IMG/VR virus record: IMGVR_UViG_3300025615_000008
Coordinates: 1 to 47,913 of that record
DNA: 47,913 nucleotides
Strand: one strand, 5' to 3'
DNA from: a virus
Under the pieces are notes generated by a model. That model had not been told where the DNA came from. It worked only from the letters and a program-made list of their open reading frames with translations, and made no database searches. Positions 2,972-20,580 of this stretch are shown piece after piece. The translations under genes and the position numbers were made by a program. Every line of letters starts with the position of its first letter. Within the stretch, counting starts at the first letter, position 1.

Positions 2972-4091
2972 GTCGTGCCCCTTTCCAGTAGTCGCTCTCG
3001 AGCGAGTTCCACCCGTCCCCTCGCAGTCCGATGATCTGCCGGAATGCCCGATCGTAGAGCATGCTGACCGGCTCCAGCCCATACCTACTTCGCGCACGCT
3101 CGGCGATGTATGCCCTGTCCAGCTCGGGTGCTCGATCGAGTGCGGCCAGAAAGTCCCCGAGCGTCTTGCAGCGGAAGCCCGTCTTCCCGTTCTCGACGGT
3201 CTCGGTGAATGCCCCGTAGTCCGTCGTGATCGCCGGCGTCCCGCACATCTGCGCTTCGGCCGCGACGCCTCCGAACGGCTCGGTGAAGAGCGTGGGCACG
3301 ATGATCGCACGGGCATTGCCGAGATAGGCGCTCCGCTGCCGACCCGAGATGGGCGGCACGTAGCGGATGTTCGGCGCGTCCTGGAGCCATGGGCCCGGGT
3401 CGCCCTGGCCGCAGAGCTCGAACTTCAGATCACGGCGCCGGCGGGCGATCTCCCAGATCGTATCGAGGCCCTTGATCTCGCAGATCCTCCCGAGGAACAC
3501 GACGCGATTGCGCGGAGGGCTGAGCTCGACGTCCCAGGCCTCCTCGTCGTAGTAGTTCGGGATGACCCACTCGTAGTTCAGGCCGTTCCGATCGGCGCGA
3601 CCCTGGTGCCAATGCCTCCAGGCCTCGGACTCGAAGACCTTGTGCGCCGCGTGGGCCAGGTGGAGATAGCCGATGCCTGATTCGACGAGCTGCATGGCTG
3701 GGATCCCGTCCACCCCCTGGCTATGCCCTGCGCCGAACGGCATGAGCACCAAGTCCTCGTCAGCCACGCGCTCGCGCAGCAGCTCGTTCAGCCGGCGGTT
3801 GAACTCGAGGTAGAGCGGGCTGCCGGTGTTGCCGTCGTCGCTATAGAACTTCGCGGGGTCGTTTCCATCATGGCCGCGGAGCTCGTTCTGCTCGTCGCGG
3901 CTCATGATGTCCACCTGCTCGGCCGCTTCGGTCTCGGCTCCCTCGACGCCGTAGTGCACGACCCTGTACTCGGGCTGATGGCGAGCGAACATCTTCGCGA
4001 ACTTCAGCACCTTCTCCGTGAACGCGCAGTGCGAGTACTCCTCCGTCGTCACGGTATGGGGCAGGCCGGGGAGATGCAGCGCCATCATCAT
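2961..4091 (-). CDS. GT4-family (GT-B fold) glycosyltransferase
   Basis: 376 residues from MMMALHLPG (ATG at 4091, overlapping the stop of the tail-tip gene as ATGA). The C-terminal half has the GT4 layout: [20 protein letters not shown] (donor-domain start), [30 protein letters not shown], and [20 protein letters not shown] with the E-x7-E-type nucleotide-sugar-binding region. The N-terminal half includes YGVEG and the charged stretch [10 protein letters not shown]. Such enzymes move a sugar from a nucleotide donor. Directly downstream of the receptor-binding tip gene it may glycosylate a virion protein or alter host surface sugar; which is unknown. The longer frame to 4136 is less likely. 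Confidence 0.85.
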
Positions 4092-7000
4092 CCGACCACC
4101 GGATGCCATTCGGCCCTTGAATTCGTCGAGCTCCACTTCACGACGTAGCCGTCGGAGGGGATGCCATTGACCACGAGATTGCCGACTCCCGTGGCCCCGG
4201 TCGGCCCGGTGGCGCCTGTGGCGCCTGACGCGCCGAGCGGTCCCTGCGGCCCCGTGGCCCCGGTCGGCCCGGTGGCCCCGGTCTCGCCGCCTGCGGACAC
4301 CACGTCCCAGTAAGTGCTGTTTCCCGGCCCCTGAGATGGTCCGAGGGCCGGCAGGATGCAGATAAACATGCCCTCGCCGACGAACGGGGATGGATCCCAG
4401 TGTACGCCGTCGCCCGGGCTATACGACGTCGCGGAGCTCCAATCGCCACGCCAGTTCATCCCGATGACGCCGGTGGGACCCTGCGCTCCCGTCGGCCCGG
4501 CGGGCCCCTGGACACCCTGAACGCCAGTAGGACCCTGCGGCCCTTGGGAGCCCGTCGCCCCGGTTGACCCCTGACTACCCTGGACACCCTGCACGCCGGT
4601 GGGGCCCTGTGGACCTTGGGCTCCCGTAGCTCCCGTGGAGCCGACGGGCCCTTGGACGCCCTGGACACCCGTAGGACCTTGCGGACCCTGCGGACCTGTT
4701 GGCCCCTGGACGCCTGTGGGGCCTGTCGATCCCTGGACCCCCGTGGCGCCCGTCGATCCCTGCCGAGCCACCACGTTCCAGTACGTCGGGTTCGAGCTCG
4801 GAGCATGGTTCGTGTTCGCCAGGAGGCAGATGTAGGCCGTGCCGTTGTACTCCACGACGTTGGTCGCCTCGTAGGCTGTCGCGCTGTCCCACGGCCCGAT
4901 CCACGTGGCTCCGACGGCACCTGTTGGGCCTGCTACTCCCGTGGGTCCCTGCGCTCCGGTGGGGCCCTGCGTGCCGGTCGCACCGGTGGCTCCGGCCGGA
5001 CCCTGCACGCCCTGAACGCCCGTGGCGCCCTGAGTCCCCTGAGGGCCCTGGGCGCCCGTGGCACCGGCCGGACCCTGCACACCCTGGACGCCGGTGGCTC
5101 CTTGGGGGCCCTGGGGTCCTTGTGATCCCGTCGCGCCGACCGTTCCCTGGACGCCCTGCACGCCGGTGGGCCCCTGCGGGCCCTGCGGACCGGTGGGCCC
5201 CTGGACGCCCGTGGGGCCTTGCACGCCGGTGGCCCCCTGCGTCCCGACTCCTGTCGGACCCGTGGTCCCCTGCGGTCCCGTCGCCCCGGTCGGCCCGGTC
5301 GGCCCGGTGGCGCCCGTCGCACCGACGGAGCCGCCCGTCGCGCTGAACGTGATGCGCGGCCGGCCCTCGGTCGTGGTATCGACCGAGACGTCGCCGGCCA
5401 CGACGAGCCGGTCCCCGGCAATCACACTCGAGTCCGATGGATTCTCTATTCGCGCACCCACGAGCCCGGTTATGCCCCAACCCTCGATCGTGCGCTTGAT
5501 GGACGGCCCTGAATCGCCCGAGCCACCCGAGCCTCCAGTGTCATCGTAGGGGGTGAGGGTGACGGTGATGGCCTCGTCTGCCGGCCAGCTTACGAACAGG
5601 CCAGCGGAGACGATCACGAATTCACCATCGTCTGTCAGATCGATGTTCCCGGAGTCCGGACCGTAGGTCGCACTCACTGCCGACCAATGGAACGACTGCA
5701 CGGCCGAGCTGGCTCTCTGCACGTCGGCCCAGAGCGTGTGCACGGTATAGTAGCCGCCGGGCGGCAGGCTCTGCTGCGTCACCACCCAGCGCAGCCCGAA
5801 CCCCTTGAGCGCGTTCGTGCCGCTCGTCGCCGCGGTCGTGTTCGAGACGGTGGCCCAGCTCGAGGTGCGGCCGAGCGAGTTCTCCGCCTGGACTTGGACG
5901 TCGTAGTCGACGGCGTCCGTCACCGGGCCGATCAGCAGCTCGGTGTCCGTGGCGAGCAACGGAGGCAGCGCGGTCCACACGCTGTCCGAGCTGCGCTTGT
6001 ACCGGACGTTGTAGCGCCGGATGAACGGGCTCGTCGACGCCGTGAAGGACAGCTTCAGGCGCGGGACGTAGCCGCCCTCCTGGGTCTTCAGCGCCGTCGT
6101 GCCGTCTGAGAGGACGGAGACGCTCGTGGGCGCATTCACGGCGTCGAGCGGGTTGAACAGGTCGGTGCCGGGCAGCGTGTCCCGGGTGTTCTGGGCGTCG
6201 AGCGTGTACGTCTCGTCCGTGTACTCGGTCAGCACCAGCCGGACCTGGGCGTCCTGCGTCATGCCGATGGCTCGCACGCGGAACAGCTTCTGTGTCCAGG
6301 CCGGCGTGGAGTGCGTGAGCGGCACCACCTGGCCGACGCGCAGCTCGAGTGCAGCCTCCTTCACGGTCACGCCGACGCCTACGTCGTTCCTGGCCTCGCG
6401 CAGCGCGACCATGCCGATCTGCTGGCCCATGTAGTAGTCGGTCGTGAACGGCAGATCGAGCTGGGCCACATTCTCGAACCCGGAGTCGTCCGTCAGGAAG
6501 TCGTTCGTGTCGCCCGGCTCGGGCCACGTGACGTCGTTCGGCTGCCAGCTCGCGTCCGCGTCGACGAACGTGCAGGCGACGCGGTTCGGCACCTGGTCGG
6601 TGCCGGCGCGGAAGAACTCCCAGTCGCCGATGATGTTGTCTTCGGTGAGCTCGAGCGAGGTCGGGGTGGCCACGCCCGGGATCGACATCGTGAACCTGCC
6701 GCCGGATGGGTCGATCCTCCCCCGACACGAGCTCAAGAGGTCCTGGAGGTTGCGGCGGAGGTCGCGGCTTGGGTCGAGGCGGCCGTTGCACGTGAAGCGC
6801 TTCTGGGTTCCGCCGGGGATCGAGACCGTCTCGTCGCAGTAGTTGGCCGCGGTGATGAAGCTGGCCTCGTCGATCTCCTCGCGAGTCCCTCCGTCCCGGG
6901 CAGCATACAATGCGCCCAGCCCGTAGCGCTTCGAGGTGAGGTAGTCGAGCACGCAGAGCGCCGGATTGTCCGACCAGACCCACGTCGAGCTGCGCGGATC

Positions 7001-7636
7001 ATAGACCTTCTGGCCCTTGACGATCGCGGTGATCGTCGGGATCCCGCCGGGGAACGCTTCCTCGTGGTAGCTCAGCCAGAACGCGCCGTAGGCGATGCCC
7101 TTGCCGGGCGCATCGGTCGTCCATTCGGTGAACGTGTTGTCGAGCTCGGCGTCGACCGTCTGAGTATCACTGCCTGCGTGCAGGCCATACTCGACCTTGT
7201 CGTTGCCGTCGACGATAAAGCTCGACTGCAACCCGTCAGAGCGCGGCTCGCCTTCGAACGAAGGGGAGCTGATCGCGAGCCGCTCGTCGAAGTAGATGTC
7301 CTCGATCGACTCGATGCCGCCGCCATTCTCCGAGCCGAGACAGAACGCGCCGACCACGGCGAGCCGCTCCCAGTTCGACGAGCTCTTGTCCACGCGGACG
7401 TCGGCCAGCCTGAGCCCGACCTTGGCCGTCCCATACACCACAGGCAGCGTCGCCTGGTTCGACACGACGTTCTGGAGGCCGCCTTGCTGCCTCTGGCTCA
7501 GCCCGCGCCGACCCAGGAGCCGCTCGAGGCCGCTGCTCGCCAGGTAGATGCCGGCGCGGATCGCCCAGCCCTGACCGGTGATCGCTCCGCCGACGATGGC
7601 CGCGGCGCCCACGATCGTCTGAGCGACGGCGCTCAC
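4088..7636 (-). CDS. Tail tip / host-specificity protein (J-like) with Fn3 and collagen-like repeats
   Basis: 1,182 residues. The N-terminal part (to about 480) matches tip attachment proteins of long-tailed phages: hydrophobic start, [20 protein letters not shown], then YGLGALY and [10 protein letters not shown]-type hub segments. A fibronectin type III domain follows (about 500-610; [15 protein letters not shown]). From about 766 to the end are Gly-X-Y collagen-like repeats ([20 protein letters not shown]), interrupted by two Trp-rich cassettes (about 907-957 [12 protein letters not shown] and 1058-1115 [12 protein letters not shown]) resembling carbohydrate-binding 5/12-type modules. The last residues ([15 protein letters not shown]) may form a trimer tip. 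Probably the central fibre that contacts the host. Confidence 0.85.
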
Positions 7637-13060: not shown

Positions 13061-13465
13061 CTACGCCACGCTCTCCGTCACTTCGAACGCGGCCGAAACG
13101 TTCACCTGAAGCCAGGCCTCATCGTCGGATTTCACTTCCACCGGTCCGCTCGCCGGCCTGAACTCGATGCCGCCGTCCATGTCGACCAGGTTGAACACGT
13201 CTCGCGCCGCATCGCCCAACTGCGTGAGCGGCCCATAGCCGCCGCCGGGCTTGCCGAACAGCTGTAGGATCACAACGCCGGTGATCCGCGCATTCGGACC
13301 CTGACTGTCCTCGAACGCGTCGCCCCAGCGGATCGTATGGCGCACCCAGCTCGCGTCGGGCGGCTCGAAGTCGCCGCCGCCGTAGTCGACCTCGGTGAGT
13401 GCGGCCCAGGCCGTCTCGAAGTGCTGCTCGATCGTCACGGCGACGCCCTGCATATCACTCGCCAC
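13061..13465 (-). CDS. Tail terminator / tail completion protein
   Basis: 134 residues. Segments EQHFETAWAALTEVDYGGGDF, WVRHTIRWGDAFEDS, GVVILQLFGKPGGGYGPLTQ and WLQVNVSAAFEVTE match DUF4128-like tail terminators, which cap the finished tail tube and join it to the head. Position between the gp10-like connector and the major tail protein supports this. It overlaps the upstream gene by 11 bases. Confidence 0.75.
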   Translation of the reverse strand: MASDMQGVAVTIEQHFETAWAALTEVDYGGGDFEPPDASWVRHTIRWGDAFEDSQGPNARITGVVILQLFGKPGGGYGPLTQLGDAARDVFNLVDMDGGIEFRPASGPVEVKSDDEAWLQVNVSAAFEVTESVA

Positions 13466-13862
13466 GGGTCACCTCCGCGAGCACCTTGCCGACGAGCGGC
13501 CGCATCTCGGCTGCCGTGACCTTAACCATGCCCTCGGGCGCCTGCTTCGAGCTGCCGTTCTCGAGCGGCGGGATGTAGGGCAGGGAATTCGTGATGAATG
13601 CCCGATCCCCCGCCTTGAAGTCCGCGAGGATCGTGGCCTGGCCCTCCTGGATCGCGGCGCGGCCCGACTTGTCGAACTTCTCCGGGTTGTTCGAGCGATC
13701 GATCTTGTCGACGCCGACATTCCAATTGGCACGTGCCCGGCCGGTGCGGACCGGCGTGCGCATGACGAGCCGACGATGCGCCTCGAGCAGCACGGCGCGG
13801 ACCAGCTTGTTCGAGCGGTCCCGTATCCCGGCCTTCACGCGGCCCGTGCCCTCGAGCTTCAT
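13455..13862 (-). CDS. Head-tail connector / neck protein, HK97 gp10-like
   Basis: 135 residues from MKLEGTGRVKAGIRDRSNKL (ATG at 13862, overlapping the upstream stop as ATGA). The pattern VLLEAHRRLVMRTPVRTGRARANWNVGV is the hallmark of HK97 gp10-like proteins (helix, then TPVRTGxLRxxW), followed by YIPPLENGSSKQAPEGMV. Members link the head-closure complex to the tail. A longer frame to 13913 exists but its added residues are basic and not family-like. Confidence 0.85.
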   Translation of the reverse strand: MKLEGTGRVKAGIRDRSNKLVRAVLLEAHRRLVMRTPVRTGRARANWNVGVDKIDRSNNPEKFDKSGRAAIQEGQATILADFKAGDRAFITNSLPYIPPLENGSSKQAPEGMVKVTAAEMRPLVGKVLAEVTRGE

Positions 13863-14137
13863 CCGGACACCCCCACGAGTCGCCTGGCCCGGCCGATGAA
13901 ACGCTCGAGCCAAGGCTGGCGCCGAGGCGCCGCACGAAGCAGCTCCGCCTCGAGGTCGACATCGACGTCCGCCTGGGCATTGAGCACGAGCGTGGCACGC
14001 ACCATGTCGGGGTGCCTCTGCCGCACATCGGACTCGACGCTGAATGCCACGACGCCGTAGAGCGGCCGTCCGTCCAGCTCGAGATGCAGGGTGGAGCTTG
14101 TCGGCCCGCCCGAGATCTTCAGCGTGTGCTGGCTCAT
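13859..14137 (-). CDS. Hypothetical protein in the connector region
   Basis: 92 residues (MSQHTLKISGGPTSSTLHLELDG...). The first 60 residues look beta-rich and the last 30 are basic and helical (WLERFIGRARRLVG). It overlaps both neighbours by ATGA. Not recognised. Similar beta-rich small proteins elsewhere bind ligands or decorate virions, but there is no direct evidence for that here. Confidence 0.65.
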   Translation of the reverse strand: MSQHTLKISGGPTSSTLHLELDGRPLYGVVAFSVESDVRQRHPDMVRATLVLNAQADVDVDLEAELLRAAPRRQPWLERFIGRARRLVGVSG

Positions 14138-16134
14138 CGCTTCACCCTCAGTTCGTAGAGCGCGGGGAGCCCGCCCGAATAGGTCGGGTCGACGCCGCTG
14201 ATCTCGAACTCCTTGTCGCCGATGACGACGAGGTCCGCCGGCGTGGGCTCACGCGTGAGACCCTTCGCCGCGATCATGAGCTTCCACTCCTGGGTCTTCG
14301 AGCCACCCGGTCCGCTCTCGCCCTTGGCACGGCGCGTATCGAGCCCCGGAGCCTCCAGCAGCGCCCGGGTCGTCTGGTCGGCCGTCGAGCGCGAGTAGGT
14401 GCGCGTGGACGTGTCGTAGGACCCGGTCGTCACGAACCGCAGGACGATCTTCTTGCCGAACTTCGCGATGAGCTTCTCGGCGACGTTGCGGAGCGGCCCG
14501 TCGAGCGGTGTGGTCGGGACGCTCTCGAGCCCGGTGTCCAGGCTGAGCCCCAGGTCGCCGATCGCGATCGAGACATCCGCGCCGGCCAGCGTGAGCTGGC
14601 GAGCGAGCAGCAGGGCCAGCGAGCTCACGCCCACCGAGACGCCGACCGCGTCGAGCGGGAACGACGTGGGGATCGCCGAGTAGCGGAGGCTCAACCCGGA
14701 TGCGCCCAGGCTCGTCGAGGCGGCCTCGAGGCCGATGAGCCGGCCGTACAGCAGCCCAAGATCCGAAGTGCCCAGGAGCATGGCCGGGACGCCCAGCGCG
14801 ATCTTGCGGCCCATGCGCAGCCCGAGATCCGAGGCGTCGGACGCGATCGCGACGGAGCCGAGTAGCAGGGTGACGCCAGCGCGGTAGGTCAAGCCGAGGT
14901 CCGATGCGGCCAGGGCGACCGCTGGCGCCCCCAGCGCCAGACCGTAGGCGCGGCGCATCCCAAGGTCCGACGCGGCCAGGGTGGACGCGACGGACTCGAG
15001 CGGGACTCTCCGATTGAAGCGGAGCCCGAGGTCGGAGACGCCAAGCGACGCCCCGACCGAATTAGCAAGGACGGTGAGCGTGAAACCCAGGTCGGATGCT
15101 GCGAGCGATGTCGTGACGGATTCGACAGCCAGCCGCTTGACGGATACCAGGCCGAGATCCGATGCACCGAGGCTCGTCGCGACGGAACCGAGAGCGAGTG
15201 AGTAAGTGGAGCCGCCGCTGATATACTCTGAGGCACCCTTGGTCCAGTTGATGCGGGTAACGCCGTTGATGTCGGTAGTGAACGGATCGGTGGCGTCTGC
15301 ACTCAAATCGAGGCCCGCAGTCAGCACACTACCGTTTGAGCTGAAATCCAGGCCAGCAGCGTTCGTGAACGGGTCGCCGATCGACTGTTGGCTGTTGGAG
15401 CCGGGGGCGTCGGTATAGTCGGACGCGTTGTAATCCGATCCGGCTGCGGCGGTGTTCAAATAACCGCCCGTCACAGCCGCGAATGAGACGTTATTGCGGG
15501 CCAAGATGCTCGAAACGTTGAATCCGTATCCGCCGCCGTATGCTGTGTTGTTGTCTAGAGCTGTAACCGAGGGTGTCTCAAAGACCCTCGCTGTCGCATT
15601 CGTGCTGTTGGTTACACCGATGCAGTTGCGAATCGCTTGGGCTGACGCAGCGGTTGCGAAGAGGATCGCGAGATTGCTGCCGCCTGAGCGGTGCAGACCG
15701 AATGCGCCGTCGATGAGGCCGTTGCCAGACCCGTCCCCGAAGTAGACCCCGCGCCCGGTCCCTGTGCCGGTCTTTTCGATCTGAACACGACCGAGCTTAT
15801 GACCACCGATATGGAGAATGCCGCCTGTAAGAGATGGGCCCTGGAAGATGTAGATCGTGTCGTCCCAAGTGTCCGTCGCTTCCTGACCGCTCGCTGGCTC
15901 GATGTCGATTAGGTGGCCGTTCGTCGTGATAGCGGAGAAGTCCACCGTGGCGGAGACTACGTCCGGCGTGCTGCCCGTCGAGTCTTTGAGGTAGATCGTC
16001 CAGTCGTCCGCGAGACTCGCACCCATCTCAGTAACGACATCGGTGATCGAGGCATAAGCCGCGTTCGCACCAGACAGAGCGGTCGTGGTGCCGTCGCCTC
16101 CAGCGCTGCCCGTATCTACGTAGCGAGTCTGCAT
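14134..16134 (-). CDS. Head-closure protein fused to a beta-helix and a 22-residue repeat array
   Basis: 666 residues with three parts. Residues 1-310 look like a right-handed beta-helix (RYVDTGSAGGDGTTTALSGA start, repeated N-rich turns, IRNCIGVTNSTNATARV). Residues about 311-535 hold ten imperfect 20-26-residue repeats centred on L(G/A)ASDLGL. Residues about 536-666 (RNVAEKLIAKFGKKIVLRFV, then EPTPADLVVIGDKEFEISGV, YELRVKR) read like head-closure/stopper proteins, which are normally about 100-130 residues and sit exactly here between the head-completion protein and the gp10-like connector. The fusion would place fibres at the neck, like whiskers or a collar. Bases in the first part are clearly poorer in G and C than the flanks. 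Confidence 0.75.
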   Translation of the reverse strand: MQTRYVDTGSAGGDGTTTALSGANAAYASITDVVTEMGASLADDWTIYLKDSTGSTPDVVSATVDFSAITTNGHLIDIEPASGQEATDTWDDTIYIFQGPSLTGGILHIGGHKLGRVQIEKTGTGTGRGVYFGDGSGNGLIDGAFGLHRSGGSNLAILFATAASAQAIRNCIGVTNSTNATARVFETPSVTALDNNTAYGGGYGFNVSSILARNNVSFAAVTGGYLNTAAAGSDYNASDYTDAPGSNSQQSIGDPFTNAAGLDFSSNGSVLTAGLDLSADATDPFTTDINGVTRINWTKGASEYISGGSTYSLALGSVATSLGASDLGLVSVKRLAVESVTTSLAASDLGFTLTVLANSVGASLGVSDLGLRFNRRVPLESVASTLAASDLGMRRAYGLALGAPAVALAASDLGLTYRAGVTLLLGSVAIASDASDLGLRMGRKIALGVPAMLLGTSDLGLLYGRLIGLEAASTSLGASGLSLRYSAIPTSFPLDAVGVSVGVSSLALLLARQLTLAGADVSIAIGDLGLSLDTGLESVPTTPLDGPLRNVAEKLIAKFGKKIVLRFVTTGSYDTSTRTYSRSTADQTTRALLEAPGLDTRRAKGESGPGGSKTQEWKLMIAAKGLTREPTPADLVVIGDKEFEISGVDPTYSGGLPALYELRVKR
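14530..15204 (-). repeat. Coding repeat array, ten copies of a ~22-residue unit
   Basis: Within the 666-residue protein, ten tandem units of 20-26 residues (about 66 bp) share the core SxGASDLGLxxGR; examples are GSVATSLGASDLGL, ESVTTSLAASDLGF, APAVALAASDLGL and VPAMLLGTSDLGL. The last two units diverge (VSSLALLL, IAIGDLGLSL). Hydrophobic and small residues alternate, suggesting beta strands with tight turns. Confidence 0.8.
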
Positions 16135-16316
16135 CAGCTACAATCCCTCTTTCGTTCGGGCCACTTCCTCGCGGCGATCTCTGGAAACGCGACATCGGCA
16201 AGAGTATGGGCCAAGTCCGCAACCGACATCAGACCGTTGATGGGTGCGGATACGTTGAAGGCGTCATGCACCCCGTCCGCCGCGCAGCGGTACAAGAGCG
16301 CGTCTGATCCGCGCAA
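16134..16316 (-). CDS. Possible small protein, TTG start (uncertain)
   Basis: 60-residue open frame beginning with TTG directly after the TGA of the upstream lectin-like gene and ending in TGATG with the next gene's start. Its C-terminal half (LMSVADLAHTLADVAFPEIAARK) is helical and plausible. Composition is not strongly protein-like at the N-terminus, and an alternative ATG at 16320 opens only an 18-residue frame. It could be a real coupled gene or the remnant of an insertion boundary between two fibre-like genes. Confidence 0.4.
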   Translation of the reverse strand: MRGSDALLYRCAADGVHDAFNVSAPINGLMSVADLAHTLADVAFPEIAARKWPERKRDCS

Positions 16317-17483
16317 TCATACTGACCACTCCACAAAGTCCCACATGTACTGGGTCTGATCTTGGGGCGGGCAGATCCACGTCGGGCCCCCGAACTGTTG
16401 CTCGCCGAGGTTCAGTGTGCCCATGGGCATGGGGCTTAGGTCCCAGAGAAGGGTATCGTTGATCCATGCCTTGTATGTCCCATCCCCTGCTCCAGCCGAA
16501 GACTCCGGCTCAAAATAGAGAGTGAAAGTTACGATTTGGTTGTTGTATGTGTCCAAGTTGACCGGTGCGCCATTGAGGTAACCTTCGATGCTGCCGAAAT
16601 TCACCCCGTTCTGCGTCCACTCAGGACTGGCACCGATGGCCCCAGCGAGACCATTGTCTCCGTTGTAGCCGAAGTACAGTCGATGCGCGTTTCCGATGTC
16701 TCCGGCACGGAAGATGATCAGGAGTTTGTGGCCGCCGCCGTTGCTGAAGGACCCGACTGTTGAGCTTCCTAATCCGCCACCTGATGCGGTCTGACCGAAC
16801 CATGTCTTCCACTGGACGTACGTCCCGCTGCCAAGTGAAAGATCACGGTTGAAGTAGATCATACTGTTTTGCTCACCATTGGCGTTGTAGCATGGGTCGG
16901 GCCCGGTGTAGCCCGCATGATACGTCCAATTGAACCGATAGGCGTGCGTGCTGCTCCCGTCATAGTTCGCTGTAAAGTCTAGGGGATAGATCGTATAACC
17001 ACCCGAGCTTCCGTTCTTGTACCCTGCACTCATCACCGAGAGCGCAGAGCCCAGGTCTTCTACCCCCGCCGCCTGAATGTCCTGAGATCCCCCCGATCTC
17101 GTATCGAAGACCAGGTTCGCGTCACCCACAGTCGGAGCGGTAGGGGGGGCGAGCGAAGCTCCCGCGCTCGGCGTTCCCGTAGCCGTATTCGAGTAGGTGA
17201 CGTTTGTCCCGTCGGAGGCCACGACCCGGAAGTCGTAGGAGTTGCCATTCACGAGCCCGGAGGGCTGGACGGTTTCAGCACTGCCCGACAGCGCGTTCCC
17301 GATGTTCGTCCAGGAGCCCGAGCCCGTGAGCCTGCGTTGAGGTTGAAGTGACGTCGCGTTGGCTGGTGCGGTCCACGTCAGCGTCGCCGTCCCGTCACCA
17401 ACGGACGAGACGGCCAGGTCGGAGATCGTGCCGAGCGTGTGATCTCCGATGCGCATGACGTAGTGACGCGCACCGACGGCCAT
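16317..17483 (-). CDS. Virion-associated fibre protein: fibronectin III plus lectin-like jelly-roll domain
   Basis: 388 residues. Residues about 19-110 form a fibronectin type III domain (ISDLAVSSVGDGTATLTW, YDFRVVASDGTNVTYSNTA). Residues about 125-388 look like a concanavalin A-like or polysaccharide-lyase jelly roll: FRAGDIGNAHRLYFGYNGDN, IVTFTLYFEPESSAGAGDGT, YKAWINDTLLWDLSP, and a Trp-rich end. Such domains bind or cut glycans. No catalytic residues can be assigned. It lies inside the connector operon beside the beta-helix fusion, and its bases are poorer in G and C than the surrounding genes, suggesting acquisition as a pair. Likely attaches to host or environmental polysaccharide. Confidence 0.7.
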   Translation of the reverse strand: MAVGARHYVMRIGDHTLGTISDLAVSSVGDGTATLTWTAPANATSLQPQRRLTGSGSWTNIGNALSGSAETVQPSGLVNGNSYDFRVVASDGTNVTYSNTATGTPSAGASLAPPTAPTVGDANLVFDTRSGGSQDIQAAGVEDLGSALSVMSAGYKNGSSGGYTIYPLDFTANYDGSSTHAYRFNWTYHAGYTGPDPCYNANGEQNSMIYFNRDLSLGSGTYVQWKTWFGQTASGGGLGSSTVGSFSNGGGHKLLIIFRAGDIGNAHRLYFGYNGDNGLAGAIGASPEWTQNGVNFGSIEGYLNGAPVNLDTYNNQIVTFTLYFEPESSAGAGDGTYKAWINDTLLWDLSPMPMGTLNLGEQQFGGPTWICPPQDQTQYMWDFVEWSV

Positions 17484-17490
17484 GGGCGCG

Positions 17491-17907
17491 TCAGGTGACG
17501 GTCAGGATCTCGGTCCCGACGTCCAGGTCGAAGCTCTCGGCGTCCGCCAGCGTGATCGACGAACCGTAGTCCCAGGTGCAGATGAGCGGATCAGCCGGAG
17601 ACGTCGGCGTGTCGTTGTAGTACACGACGTACCGGAACGGACCCACCGTCCCACCCGAGGCCGTCACGGTCGCGTCGACCGCGGTGATCGAGGTCACGCC
17701 GCCCGTCCTGCTCAGCCCGTTCTGGGAGTCGATGGGCGCAGCGTAGCCGTTCTCCTGCGTGATCTCCGCGAGATCGGCCTTCACCGCGTCGGCCGCGGCG
17801 TCTGGCGCCGTGTTGCTCAGGTACCAGTTGAGCGTGTCGGCCGAGAGATCGTGGACGCCGCTCGCCAGGTCCTCGCTGAACTGCTCGAATTTCGTGCCGG
17901 TGGCCAT
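17491..17907 (-). CDS. Conserved phage structural protein, possible capsid decoration protein
   Basis: 138 residues. The N-terminus (KFEQFSEDLASGVHDLSADT, LNWYLSNTAPDAAAD, VKADLAEITQENGY) and the C-terminal half (GPFRYVVYYNDT, WDYGSSITLADAESFDLD) match a widespread phage protein found in head or head-tail operons and usually called hypothetical. Its beta-rich C-terminal domain suggests a surface role. The function is not established as far as I know, so decoration is a guess from context. Confidence 0.7.
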   Translation of the reverse strand: MATGTKFEQFSEDLASGVHDLSADTLNWYLSNTAPDAAADAVKADLAEITQENGYAAPIDSQNGLSRTGGVTSITAVDATVTASGGTVGPFRYVVYYNDTPTSPADPLICTWDYGSSITLADAESFDLDVGTEILTVT

Positions 17908-17910
17908 GGA

Positions 17911-18369
17911 TCAGCCCTCCATCTTCTCGAGGAGCTCCAGGGCGGCACGCTGGTCACGCGGAGGCTTGTCGGCCCCGGTGACCTGCATCCACCGCTTCAC
18001 CTCGCCGTCGGAGAGCACGCGGCCCATCCGATCGGGAGCGTTCGCGCCATCGGCCACCCAGATCTCGCGCTCGGGCCACCAGCTCAGGTGATCGACGCGG
18101 ATCTTCATGCGCACGACGCCGGCGGCCGAGGCCTGGCGCAGCTCCTCGACCTTGGCGTTCACCTCGTCGGGCCAGTCGCCCTTGTGCGTGGCCATCTTCT
18201 CGCGGAGCTTCGCGAACTCCTTCCGAGCGGCCTTGCGCGCCTCGTCCTCGGCCAGGTCTTCGGCTCTCGCGAGCTCGCGGCCGTCGTCGAGCTTGATCAG
18301 CTGGGTGATGGTCAGCAGATACCCGAGGAACCTCACGAGCTCGCCGACCTTGGGCTTTCTGTTTGCCAT
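17911..18369 (-). CDS. Hypothetical protein in the connector operon
   Basis: 152 residues, strongly helical and charged in the middle (LAEDEARKAARKEFAKLREK), followed by WWPEREIWVADGANAPDRMG and a helical end. Not recognised. It stands between the head-completion protein and the 138-residue structural protein, with three bases to the next start, so it is probably made with the virion genes. Could be an assembly factor or a minor head protein. Confidence 0.7.
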   Translation of the reverse strand: MANRKPKVGELVRFLGYLLTITQLIKLDDGRELARAEDLAEDEARKAARKEFAKLREKMATHKGDWPDEVNAKVEELRQASAAGVVRMKIRVDHLSWWPEREIWVADGANAPDRMGRVLSDGEVKRWMQVTGADKPPRDQRAALELLEKMEG

Positions 18370-18383
18370 AGCCTCGTCCCTCC

Positions 18384-18911
18384 TCAGGATCTCAGCATGC
18401 GGAAGGCCAGACTGCTCGAGTCGACGAGCAGGGGCCGTAGATATCGCAGTACGTTCTCGGGTAGCTTCCCGGCCGGCCTGGAGAGGCGGGGGGTCACGGA
18501 CAAGGGTCCCAACTTCACGTCCTCGAACCCCTCCAGCCCTGTATCCGTGAGCGAGACCCCCCCGCCGAGTATCTCCAGCGCCAGCTCATACGTGGCCTTC
18601 TTGACCGGCTCGGGGATGACGGTCTCGAGGTACGCCCAGCCCTCGTCGCTGATGCAGCCGTAGCGCGGGAACCTGAGCGCCTGGGTCGTGCCGCTCGAGG
18701 TTCCGTTCAACGGGTGAACCGGCGTGCCCTCGAAGTCCTCTTGGTCGATGCGCCACGTCGCCATGATCAACGCCTGCGCCTTCTCGTCCGAGCTCGCGCC
18801 CGTCCAGTCCGAGGCGTCCTTGCGGTTCGCGAAGTACGCTTCAGCCTCCGCCATCGTGGCGTAGGCATTCGCGTCGCTGGCGCCGACCGTTGCGACCAGG
18901 CTTGCAGCCAT
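18384..18911 (-). CDS. Head-tail connector / head completion protein (DnaT-like Pfam family)
   Basis: 175 residues. The opening DANAYATMAEAEAYFANRKD, the helix ALIMATWRIDQEDFEG and the segment QALRFPRYGC are the familiar signature of phage head-completion proteins (often auto-labelled DnaT-like), which dock on the portal after packaging. Pro and Gly loops then a basic C-terminus (LRYLRPLLVDSSSLAFRML) complete it. Position after coat and before head-closure genes agrees. Confidence 0.8.
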   Translation of the reverse strand: MAASLVATVGASDANAYATMAEAEAYFANRKDASDWTGASSDEKAQALIMATWRIDQEDFEGTPVHPLNGTSSGTTQALRFPRYGCISDEGWAYLETVIPEPVKKATYELALEILGGGVSLTDTGLEGFEDVKLGPLSVTPRLSRPAGKLPENVLRYLRPLLVDSSSLAFRMLRS

Positions 18912-19413: not shown

Positions 19414-20580
19414 CTATCCGGCCAGCCTGCAGGCGAGCTCCCGGCGCACGAGCTTCACGCCATAGAGGATCCGCCACTGATACTTCGTCCTGGCATACTC
19501 GCGGCTCACCTCGAGGGTGAGCGTGAGCCCGGAGATCGGATCCACGGCCGCCCGCATGACGTTGCCGCCCATGAACCCGTCCGCCGGGCCGAGCGTGCGG
19601 GTCGCGAGCGCGAACGCGTCGCGATGGAATCCCAGGTTGGCCACGTGGCTCGACTTGACCGTGATGGCCTCGGAGCCGGCCAGCGCGATCTCGAGGCCGG
19701 GCTCGATCGCAAGCGTCACGTCCGTCGCTGCGGAGGCCTGCGTGGCGTCGGCGGTCAGCACATAGGTCTGGCTGTGGCCGGCGATGTTGATGATGTCGCC
19801 TTCCTTGAGGGCGCAGGCGCCGGTCGACGCTGCCGTGGTCGCGGCGAACGACTTCGTGCCCGCCGCAACGGCGGTCGAGGCCTTTGCGACGAGCCCCGTG
19901 GTGATGGTCCCGGCCGTGTGGGTGGGGATGTTCTGATCCATCGCCCACATGAACCCGAGCAAATCGCCGATCATCGCGGACGACAGCGTGTCCTCTCCGG
20001 CCCTGCGGAAGCTGGCGTCCTGGACCGCCCGGACGAGCAGCGCGTTGGCCTTGGCTGCCGTGCCGAGCACCATGTTCCGCGGCTCGGTCGGAGCCAGCTG
20101 GTCGTTCAGGACCCTGTCGACCGCCACGGCCTCGGCGAGATCGGGCGTGCCGCCGCCGGCGAACGGCGTGGTCCCCGCGGTCCCGGCATACCCGTACACA
20201 CCCTTGTACAGGGCCAGGATCTCCGCGTCGACGTAGTTCGCGAGCGCCTTCAGGTGCTCGGAGAGCTGGAGGTCACGAGCGCCGACGGCGACCTCGCGGG
20301 CCTCCTTGTCCGTCACGAACATGTCGGACTTCTTCCACCGGTCGAGCACGATCGCCACGCTGGACGGCGTGCTGTTGCCGCCTGCAGGTGGGGTCGGCCC
20401 GGGAGTCACGTCGCCCACGATCACAGCGGAGGGGACCGGCACGTTGACCGTGTCGCCCTGCTTCGCGACCTCGGTGCTCCAGTCGGTATTGATCAGCCTG
20501 GGCATGATCGCATGCTGACGAAGCGCCAACAGACCTCGTGCGAAGATCTGATTGACGATTGCGTCGAAGGTGTTGGCCAT
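19414..20580 (-). CDS. Major capsid protein, P22 coat-like (HK97 fold)
   Basis: 388 residues. FDAIVNQIFARGLLALRQHAI, the QGDTVNVPVPSA strand, DRWKKSDMFVTDKEA and RNMVLGTAAKANALL are typical of the P22 gp5-like coat family. Residues about 243-310 carry the beta-rich module ALKEGDIINIAG, QTYVLTADAT and AITVKSS. It builds the icosahedral shell around the scaffold encoded just upstream (20808-21593). A strong ribosome site (CAGGAGCCGAAG before ATG) fixes the start. P22-type coats are best known in short-tailed phages; here the tail genes are of the long non-contractile type. Confidence 0.9.
   Translation of the reverse strand: MANTFDAIVNQIFARGLLALRQHAIMPRLINTDWSTEVAKQGDTVNVPVPSAVIVGDVTPGPTPPAGGNSTPSSVAIVLDRWKKSDMFVTDKEAREVAVGARDLQLSEHLKALANYVDAEILALYKGVYGYAGTAGTTPFAGGGTPDLAEAVAVDRVLNDQLAPTEPRNMVLGTAAKANALLVRAVQDASFRRAGEDTLSSAMIGDLLGFMWAMDQNIPTHTAGTITTGLVAKASTAVAAGTKSFAATTAASTGACALKEGDIINIAGHSQTYVLTADATQASAATDVTLAIEPGLEIALAGSEAITVKSSHVANLGFHRDAFALATRTLGPADGFMGGNVMRAAVDPISGLTLTLEVSREYARTKYQWRILYGVKLVRRELACRLAG

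Follow-up and report, generated by a model that had tools for sequence, protein, structure and literature searches.

In-frame fusion of a phage head-closure (stopper) domain to a repeat array and a beta-helix-like module

Introduction

Can an appendage of the phage neck be built into the stopper chain itself, instead of being mounted there as a separate protein? The question is raised by one metagenomic contig of an uncultured tailed virus of bacteria, a 47.9-kb linear record whose entire analysed stretch of 47,913 nt is called the window here. An initial annotation, made from the sequence, described one of its open reading frames (ORFs), of 666 aa, as a stopper-like C-terminus behind a repeat array. 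The neck of a long-tailed phage has portal and adaptor in 12 chains each and stopper and terminator in 6 each; the stopper ring is a hexamer (PMC12886913). In the lactococcal phage TP901-1, elongated neck passage proteins are mounted on the neck and present a glycan-directed module; the authors state that their molecular attachment there is not known (PMC10747895).

Results

A complete stopper domain at the end of a 666-aa protein

The ORF listing of the window shows a frame that opens with ATG and is free of internal stops, and a family search of the 666-aa product returned a single match, to head closure Hc1 (phrog_161). The frame, this match and the repeats described below confirm the overall layout in the initial annotation. 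Its parts are:

14134..16134 (-): fusion protein, 666 aa, with a beta-helix-like N-terminus, a 22-residue repeat array and a C-terminal head-closure (stopper) domain
15205..16134 (-): residues 1-310, putative beta-helix-like adhesin module (homology to proteins of contigs L192 and L196; GC3 0.71)
14539..15207 (-): residues 310-532, ten 22-residue repeats with the core ASDLGL (unit HMM, lag-22 autocorrelation)
14137..14502 (-): residues 545-666, complete head-closure Hc1 / stopper domain (profiles, AlphaFold2, Foldseek)

The proposal that the last ~130 residues are a head stopper is borne out by agreement between profile, structural database and predicted fold. In particular, phrog_161 'head closure Hc1' matches residues 548-666 over profile positions 7-119 of 120 (E=4.9e-8), an iterated HMM from related phages scores the domain at E=3.8e-26, and a PDB profile search with 33 Hc1 rows reached entries named stopper or connector (10lj, 'Stopper protein gp12', 7e-9; 8gtf, 2e-5; 8hdr, 0.02). 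A C-terminal part lacking a stopper fold would have spoken against the initial annotation, but the AlphaFold2 model of the isolated domain (pLDDT 86) does have that fold; its top 20 Foldseek matches in the PDB are all phage neck or stopper chains (20/20), and the top matches include phiCD508, T1, Pam3, GTA, the SPP1 connector and Bxb1. Within the full-length model the domain has a pLDDT of 82-96 except in one loop region and finds the same structural matches.

A separate stopper gene was the other observation named in the initial annotation as refuting it, and no second Hc1 was found in the 47.9-kb record, which is linear and perhaps incomplete: phrog_161 matches the fusion ORF only, phrog_25 has zero matches in the record, and the iterated HMM, run over the coding-strand ORFs, identifies the fusion ORF as the sole Hc1. 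Residues 545-666 are a complete head-closure domain and the only one in the record. The protein is like SPP1 gp16-like stoppers and phrog_161 members in domain, fold, gene position and sole copy; in contrast, known Hc1 members are single-domain proteins of ~110-130 aa, whereas here 540 residues precede the domain. The first residues of free-standing Hc1 homologues align to fusion residues 541-544. ATG, GTG and TTG are absent in frame from residues 503-568, and no Shine-Dalgarno-like start was found near the Hc1 boundary.

The repeat array and the N-terminal module

The unit HMM finds exactly 10 copies in residues 310-532, spaced 20-25 residues apart, and the lag-22 autocorrelation has a z of about 10 against composition-preserving shuffles, in keeping with the ~225 residues of repeats first described. 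A tandem repeat search of the DNA (TRF) found none; since the repetition is visible in the protein only, the array is either old or kept by selection on its fold.

The ~310-residue beta-helix that had been read in the N-terminus stands as a matter of homology, whereas family searches and structure prediction do not establish it. Residues 1-310 have no match of their own in Pfam, PHROG or NCBIfam, and their pLDDT in the full-length AlphaFold2 model is about 25-60; that model was made without N-terminus homologues as input and is uninformative for residues 1-540. The motif YVDT..GGDGT led to proteins of L191/L196 and L192. The start of the module is 46% identical to the L192 protein (E=3e-10) and 37% identical to the L196 protein (E=4e-6) over 61-75 aa, end-to-end alignment of the module gives 30-32%, and the L196 homologue reaches Pfam Beta_helix (PF13229) just above the cut-off. 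Both proteins have a related starting domain followed by 20-22-residue repeats. L192 encodes the protein unfused, in the interval from Hc1 to Neck1, and has a phrog_644 homologue close by. The L196 contig is podovirus-like, and there the protein comes after a phrog_644 homologue. Judged by these alignments, residues 1-310 are related to beta-helix virion proteins, and because such a protein occurs both in the L192 neck cluster, unfused, and in a podovirus-like contig, the beta-helix-plus-repeat architecture is a mobile virion module.

Gene order, base composition and the derived state of the fusion

The surrounding genes are:

13061..13465 (-): tail terminator (phrog_179, E=1e-20)
13455..13913 (-): tail completion / Neck1, HK97 gp10-like (phrog_169, E=6e-41)
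13859..14137 (-): 92-aa ORF (ORF list); its ATG and the fusion-gene stop codon overlap
16317..17483 (-): 388-aa Fn3 plus lectin-like protein (weak Pfam fn3, PDB Fn3-type matches; GC3 0.71)
17491..17907 (-): phrog_644 family protein (PHROG match), in other phages associated with proteins that have period-22 repeats
17911..18369 (-): 152-aa protein inside the inserted block, no significant family match
18384..18911 (-): head-tail adaptor Ad1 (phrog_477, E=1.7e-29; Pfam DnaT_2, E=5e-19)
19414..20580 (-): P22-type major capsid protein (Pfam P22_CoatProtein), the query for finding relatives

Family searches place the fusion gene between adaptor Ad1 and Neck1/terminator, where the stopper gene had been expected, in the order adaptor, stopper, Neck1, terminator. 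The same order without an insert occurs in L002 and L003 (capsid protein 69% identical), where Ad1, a plain 128-aa Hc1, Neck1 and the terminator lie back to back, whereas about 3.9 kb separate the Hc1 domain from Ad1 in the window. Because these relatives carry the same gene plain and adjoining the adaptor, the fusion in the window is the derived form. The Fn3 part of the upstream gene is upheld by Fn3-type PDB matches and by Pfam, below its cut-off; its lectin part is a reading of the sequence. The 388-aa product is presumed to be a neck accessory.

GC3 is 0.71 both in residues 1-310 and in the Fn3-lectin gene, against 0.83-0.92 in most neighbours. The shift falls at about residues 330-370, within the repeat array, and the repeats closest to Hc1 match it in GC3. 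A change of composition inside the repeats fits the import of the N-terminal block, together with the Fn3-lectin gene, as a cassette that recombined within the array. The dip in GC and GC3 spans 15205-17483, a probable imported cassette, which includes a 182-bp non-coding gap at 16135-16316.

Hc1 fusions are rare and the adaptor-stopper interval is usually short

No relative of the whole fusion was found among 50,697 phage records or in IMG/VR, and searches of phage records or IMG/VR with the N-terminal part, the repeats or Hc1 separately gave no whole-fusion relative either. Hc1 matches numbered 53 in a capsid-based survey (duplicates included) and 81 in an Hc1-based survey, with 16 more from phrog_161 and >80 places from phrog_25 (about 400 genomes each); among over 200 further Hc1 frames examined, there was no other true Hc1 fusion. 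Several long frames were rejected as candidates: those of L028, L038-L040 and L072 run out of frame through Ad1, and the four longest phrog_25 frames, from bacterial genomes (328-611 aa), are arginine-rich read-through of GC-rich DNA with the real starts adjoining Hc1. The long terminator frames of L042-L044 were dismissed on the same grounds.

Of 109 phages, the window included, 98 have an Ad1-Hc1 interval of <=600 bp, 7 one of 0.6-2 kb and 4 one of >2 kb. The 11 of 109 with extra DNA (0.6-4.6 kb) include several with adhesin- or esterase-like genes, and the long intervals contain, as read from sequence, LamG-like, fibre-like, collagen-like and esterase-like genes. In L009, L132, L149 and L017, the interval serves as a cargo slot whose genes are lectin-like, fibre-like or esterase-like. 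As a separate observation, the phrog_10356 profile matches the Hc1 of L192 (L192:4681-5025) at positions 5-105 and the LamG-like neck-slot protein of KBS-S-2A (L009:6179-6937) at positions 370-639; its members may include an Hc1-adhesin fusion, and no member carrying both halves was found.

Comparable fusions in other neck ring proteins

Neck ring proteins other than the stopper also carry added N-terminal domains:

L064:10183-11529; L065:5921-8686; L067:4639-5988; also L091-L093 and L096: SGNH/SASA esterase-Ad1 fusions
L005:12244-13884 (MW202657): 546-aa protein that begins with an adhesin-like part, is Gly/Ser-rich in the middle and ends in a tail terminator domain (phrog_179)
L105:6430-8691 (MW202473); L106:6448-8406 (MW202478): tubular protein A fusions (N-terminal module, period-22 repeats, ring domain)

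Ad1 lies at the C-terminus of 448/449-aa SGNH/SASA esterase proteins on contigs from several metagenomes, with Pfam SASA above its cut-off and the GDSL, GTND and DxIH blocks present, and is C-terminal in a 921-aa protein as well; the close relatives L062, L063, L068 and L073 have plain Ad1. As in the window, a surface-type domain is N-terminal to a neck ring protein in phages with a P22-type coat; in contrast, the added part is an enzyme domain without a repeat stalk, and the ring is the adaptor (12-mer) instead of the stopper (6-mer).

Podovirus tubular protein A (phrog_394; PDB connector match, 1.6e-17) is C-terminal in 652- and 753-aa proteins, each directly after a phrog_644 homologue. These fusions share the repeat period of 22 with the window, whereas their ring is of the adaptor type. 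The KP32 tail tubular protein A is likewise an enlarged connector-ring protein of the adaptor type, in its case with a lectin-like region (PMC5440376). HMM and profile comparison did not show homology between the repeats of the window and those of L105, L106, L107, L108 and L196; the period alone is common to them.

A repeat ORF with a period of 19 to 25 occurs in 5 of 8 loci found through phrog_644 versus 4 of 185 other loci, in a set that was not independently sampled, and one of those four, L192, has a PHROG match to phrog_644 as well; the association is a lead, not a rate. In sipho- and podoviruses (L103-L109, L192, L196), phrog_644 homologues lie beside period-22 repeat proteins, lyases or beta-helix proteins. 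Possibly, the phrog_644 protein is a partner or anchor of adhesin cassettes.

Discussion

Overall, the locus is likely to encode a functional stopper that gained a virion-surface appendage by in-frame fusion, giving six neck appendages per virion. Since the stopper domain is retained, six per neck is the simplest reading; of the 6 or 12 fibres in the connector ring proposed at first, six are expected and twelve are not, stoppers being hexameric (PMC12886913). Residues 545-666 would assemble as a hexamer below the 12-mer adaptor, hold the packaged DNA and receive the terminator, and the ten-unit repeat stalk and the beta-helix module would emerge at the outer rim of this ring, so that the ring itself, in place of separate whisker proteins, would probably carry the fibres. 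The stopper of phage 812 has an extra external beta-sandwich, and its N- and C-termini touch decoration proteins near putative whiskers (PMC12886913), so that an N-terminal extension could plausibly exit outward and leave the channel unblocked. From the kind of module and its neighbours we infer an adhesive N-terminal part; the six appendages, probably joined by the Fn3-lectin and phrog_644 proteins acquired along with them, would likely bind or process host surface glycans on approach, as is thought for whiskers and neck passage proteins.

The extension could instead brace the neck. The external beta-sandwich and decoration proteins of phage 812 are thought to do so (PMC12886913), and no fibres were seen on the Milano collar (PMC10491603). 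This role is unlikely, as the N-terminal module is of a beta-helix virion type and adjoins an Fn3-lectin gene of equal base composition, and the SGNH esterases of the comparable fusions fit surface chemistry better.

It is improbable, too, that the protein is a precursor cut by a protease between repeats and stopper, leaving an ordinary ring and a beta-helix-repeat part that is released or attached elsewhere. The junction does nearly coincide with the first residue of free-standing Hc1 homologues, and the same N-terminal architecture is a separate protein in L192 and L196; however, no cleavage motif or protease was identified, and the fused adaptor proteins of several independent contigs suggest that fusion is tolerated as such.

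A ring mixing plain and fibre-bearing stoppers, with Hc1 also made alone by internal initiation, would ease crowding, and in-frame codons are available (GTG at residues 501 and 503; ATG at 441 and 452). We regard it as very unlikely, because no Shine-Dalgarno-like sequence precedes these codons and a product begun there would still carry part of the last repeats. Highly improbable is an artefact joining two genes by chimera or error: the fusion is known from a single metagenomic contig, is absent from close relatives and shifts in base composition inside the ORF, but the insert has neck genes of this same phage on either side, arranged as expected, GC3 is shared by Hc1 and the repeats next to it, and, with no ATG/GTG/TTG at the boundary, one indel cannot restore two genes unless a start codon was lost as well.

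An appendage covalently built into the stopper would differ from known neck structures in how it is attached. The stopper of phage 812, like that of the window, is enlarged by an outer domain, whereas its whiskers are separate proteins, apparently held by the decoration proteins (PMC12886913). The TP901-1 neck passage protein has its own gene and an N-terminal domain modelled as its own collar (PMC10747895); here, by contrast, one continuous ORF carries the putative appendage and the stopper. Evolved Dit and major tail proteins with carbohydrate-binding modules (PMC7291167) are host-binding grafts on ring proteins, as proposed here, and the structural ring domain is likewise retained in the window protein (AlphaFold2, Foldseek); they differ in place, since Dit sits at the tip of the tail and the tube protein along its length, whereas the stopper belongs to the head-closure ring.

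More broadly, and tentatively, the neck rings (adaptor, stopper, terminator and podovirus tubular protein A) could be a general grafting platform and, after the tail tip and the capsid, a third site of adhesion, with cassettes landing in the adaptor-stopper interval and becoming fixed by fusion. These cassettes, for adhesins or esterases, would in some cases bring along a phrog_644 partner and a stalk of period-22 repeats, and the stalk may act as a recombination joint. If so, an in-frame ring fusion fixes a cassette covalently and shows where its unfused versions attach. A natural appendage-stopper fusion, together with the adaptor and terminator fusions, would be covalent evidence for the neck attachment site, which becomes testable with one protein. 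Moreover, a genome-sealing ring is suggested to tolerate 540 extra residues per subunit, and overlooked host-binding domains could be sought in the neck. Elsewhere in the window, an 1182-aa ORF at 4088-7636 (-) shows strong short-period repetition and is probably a tail fibre.
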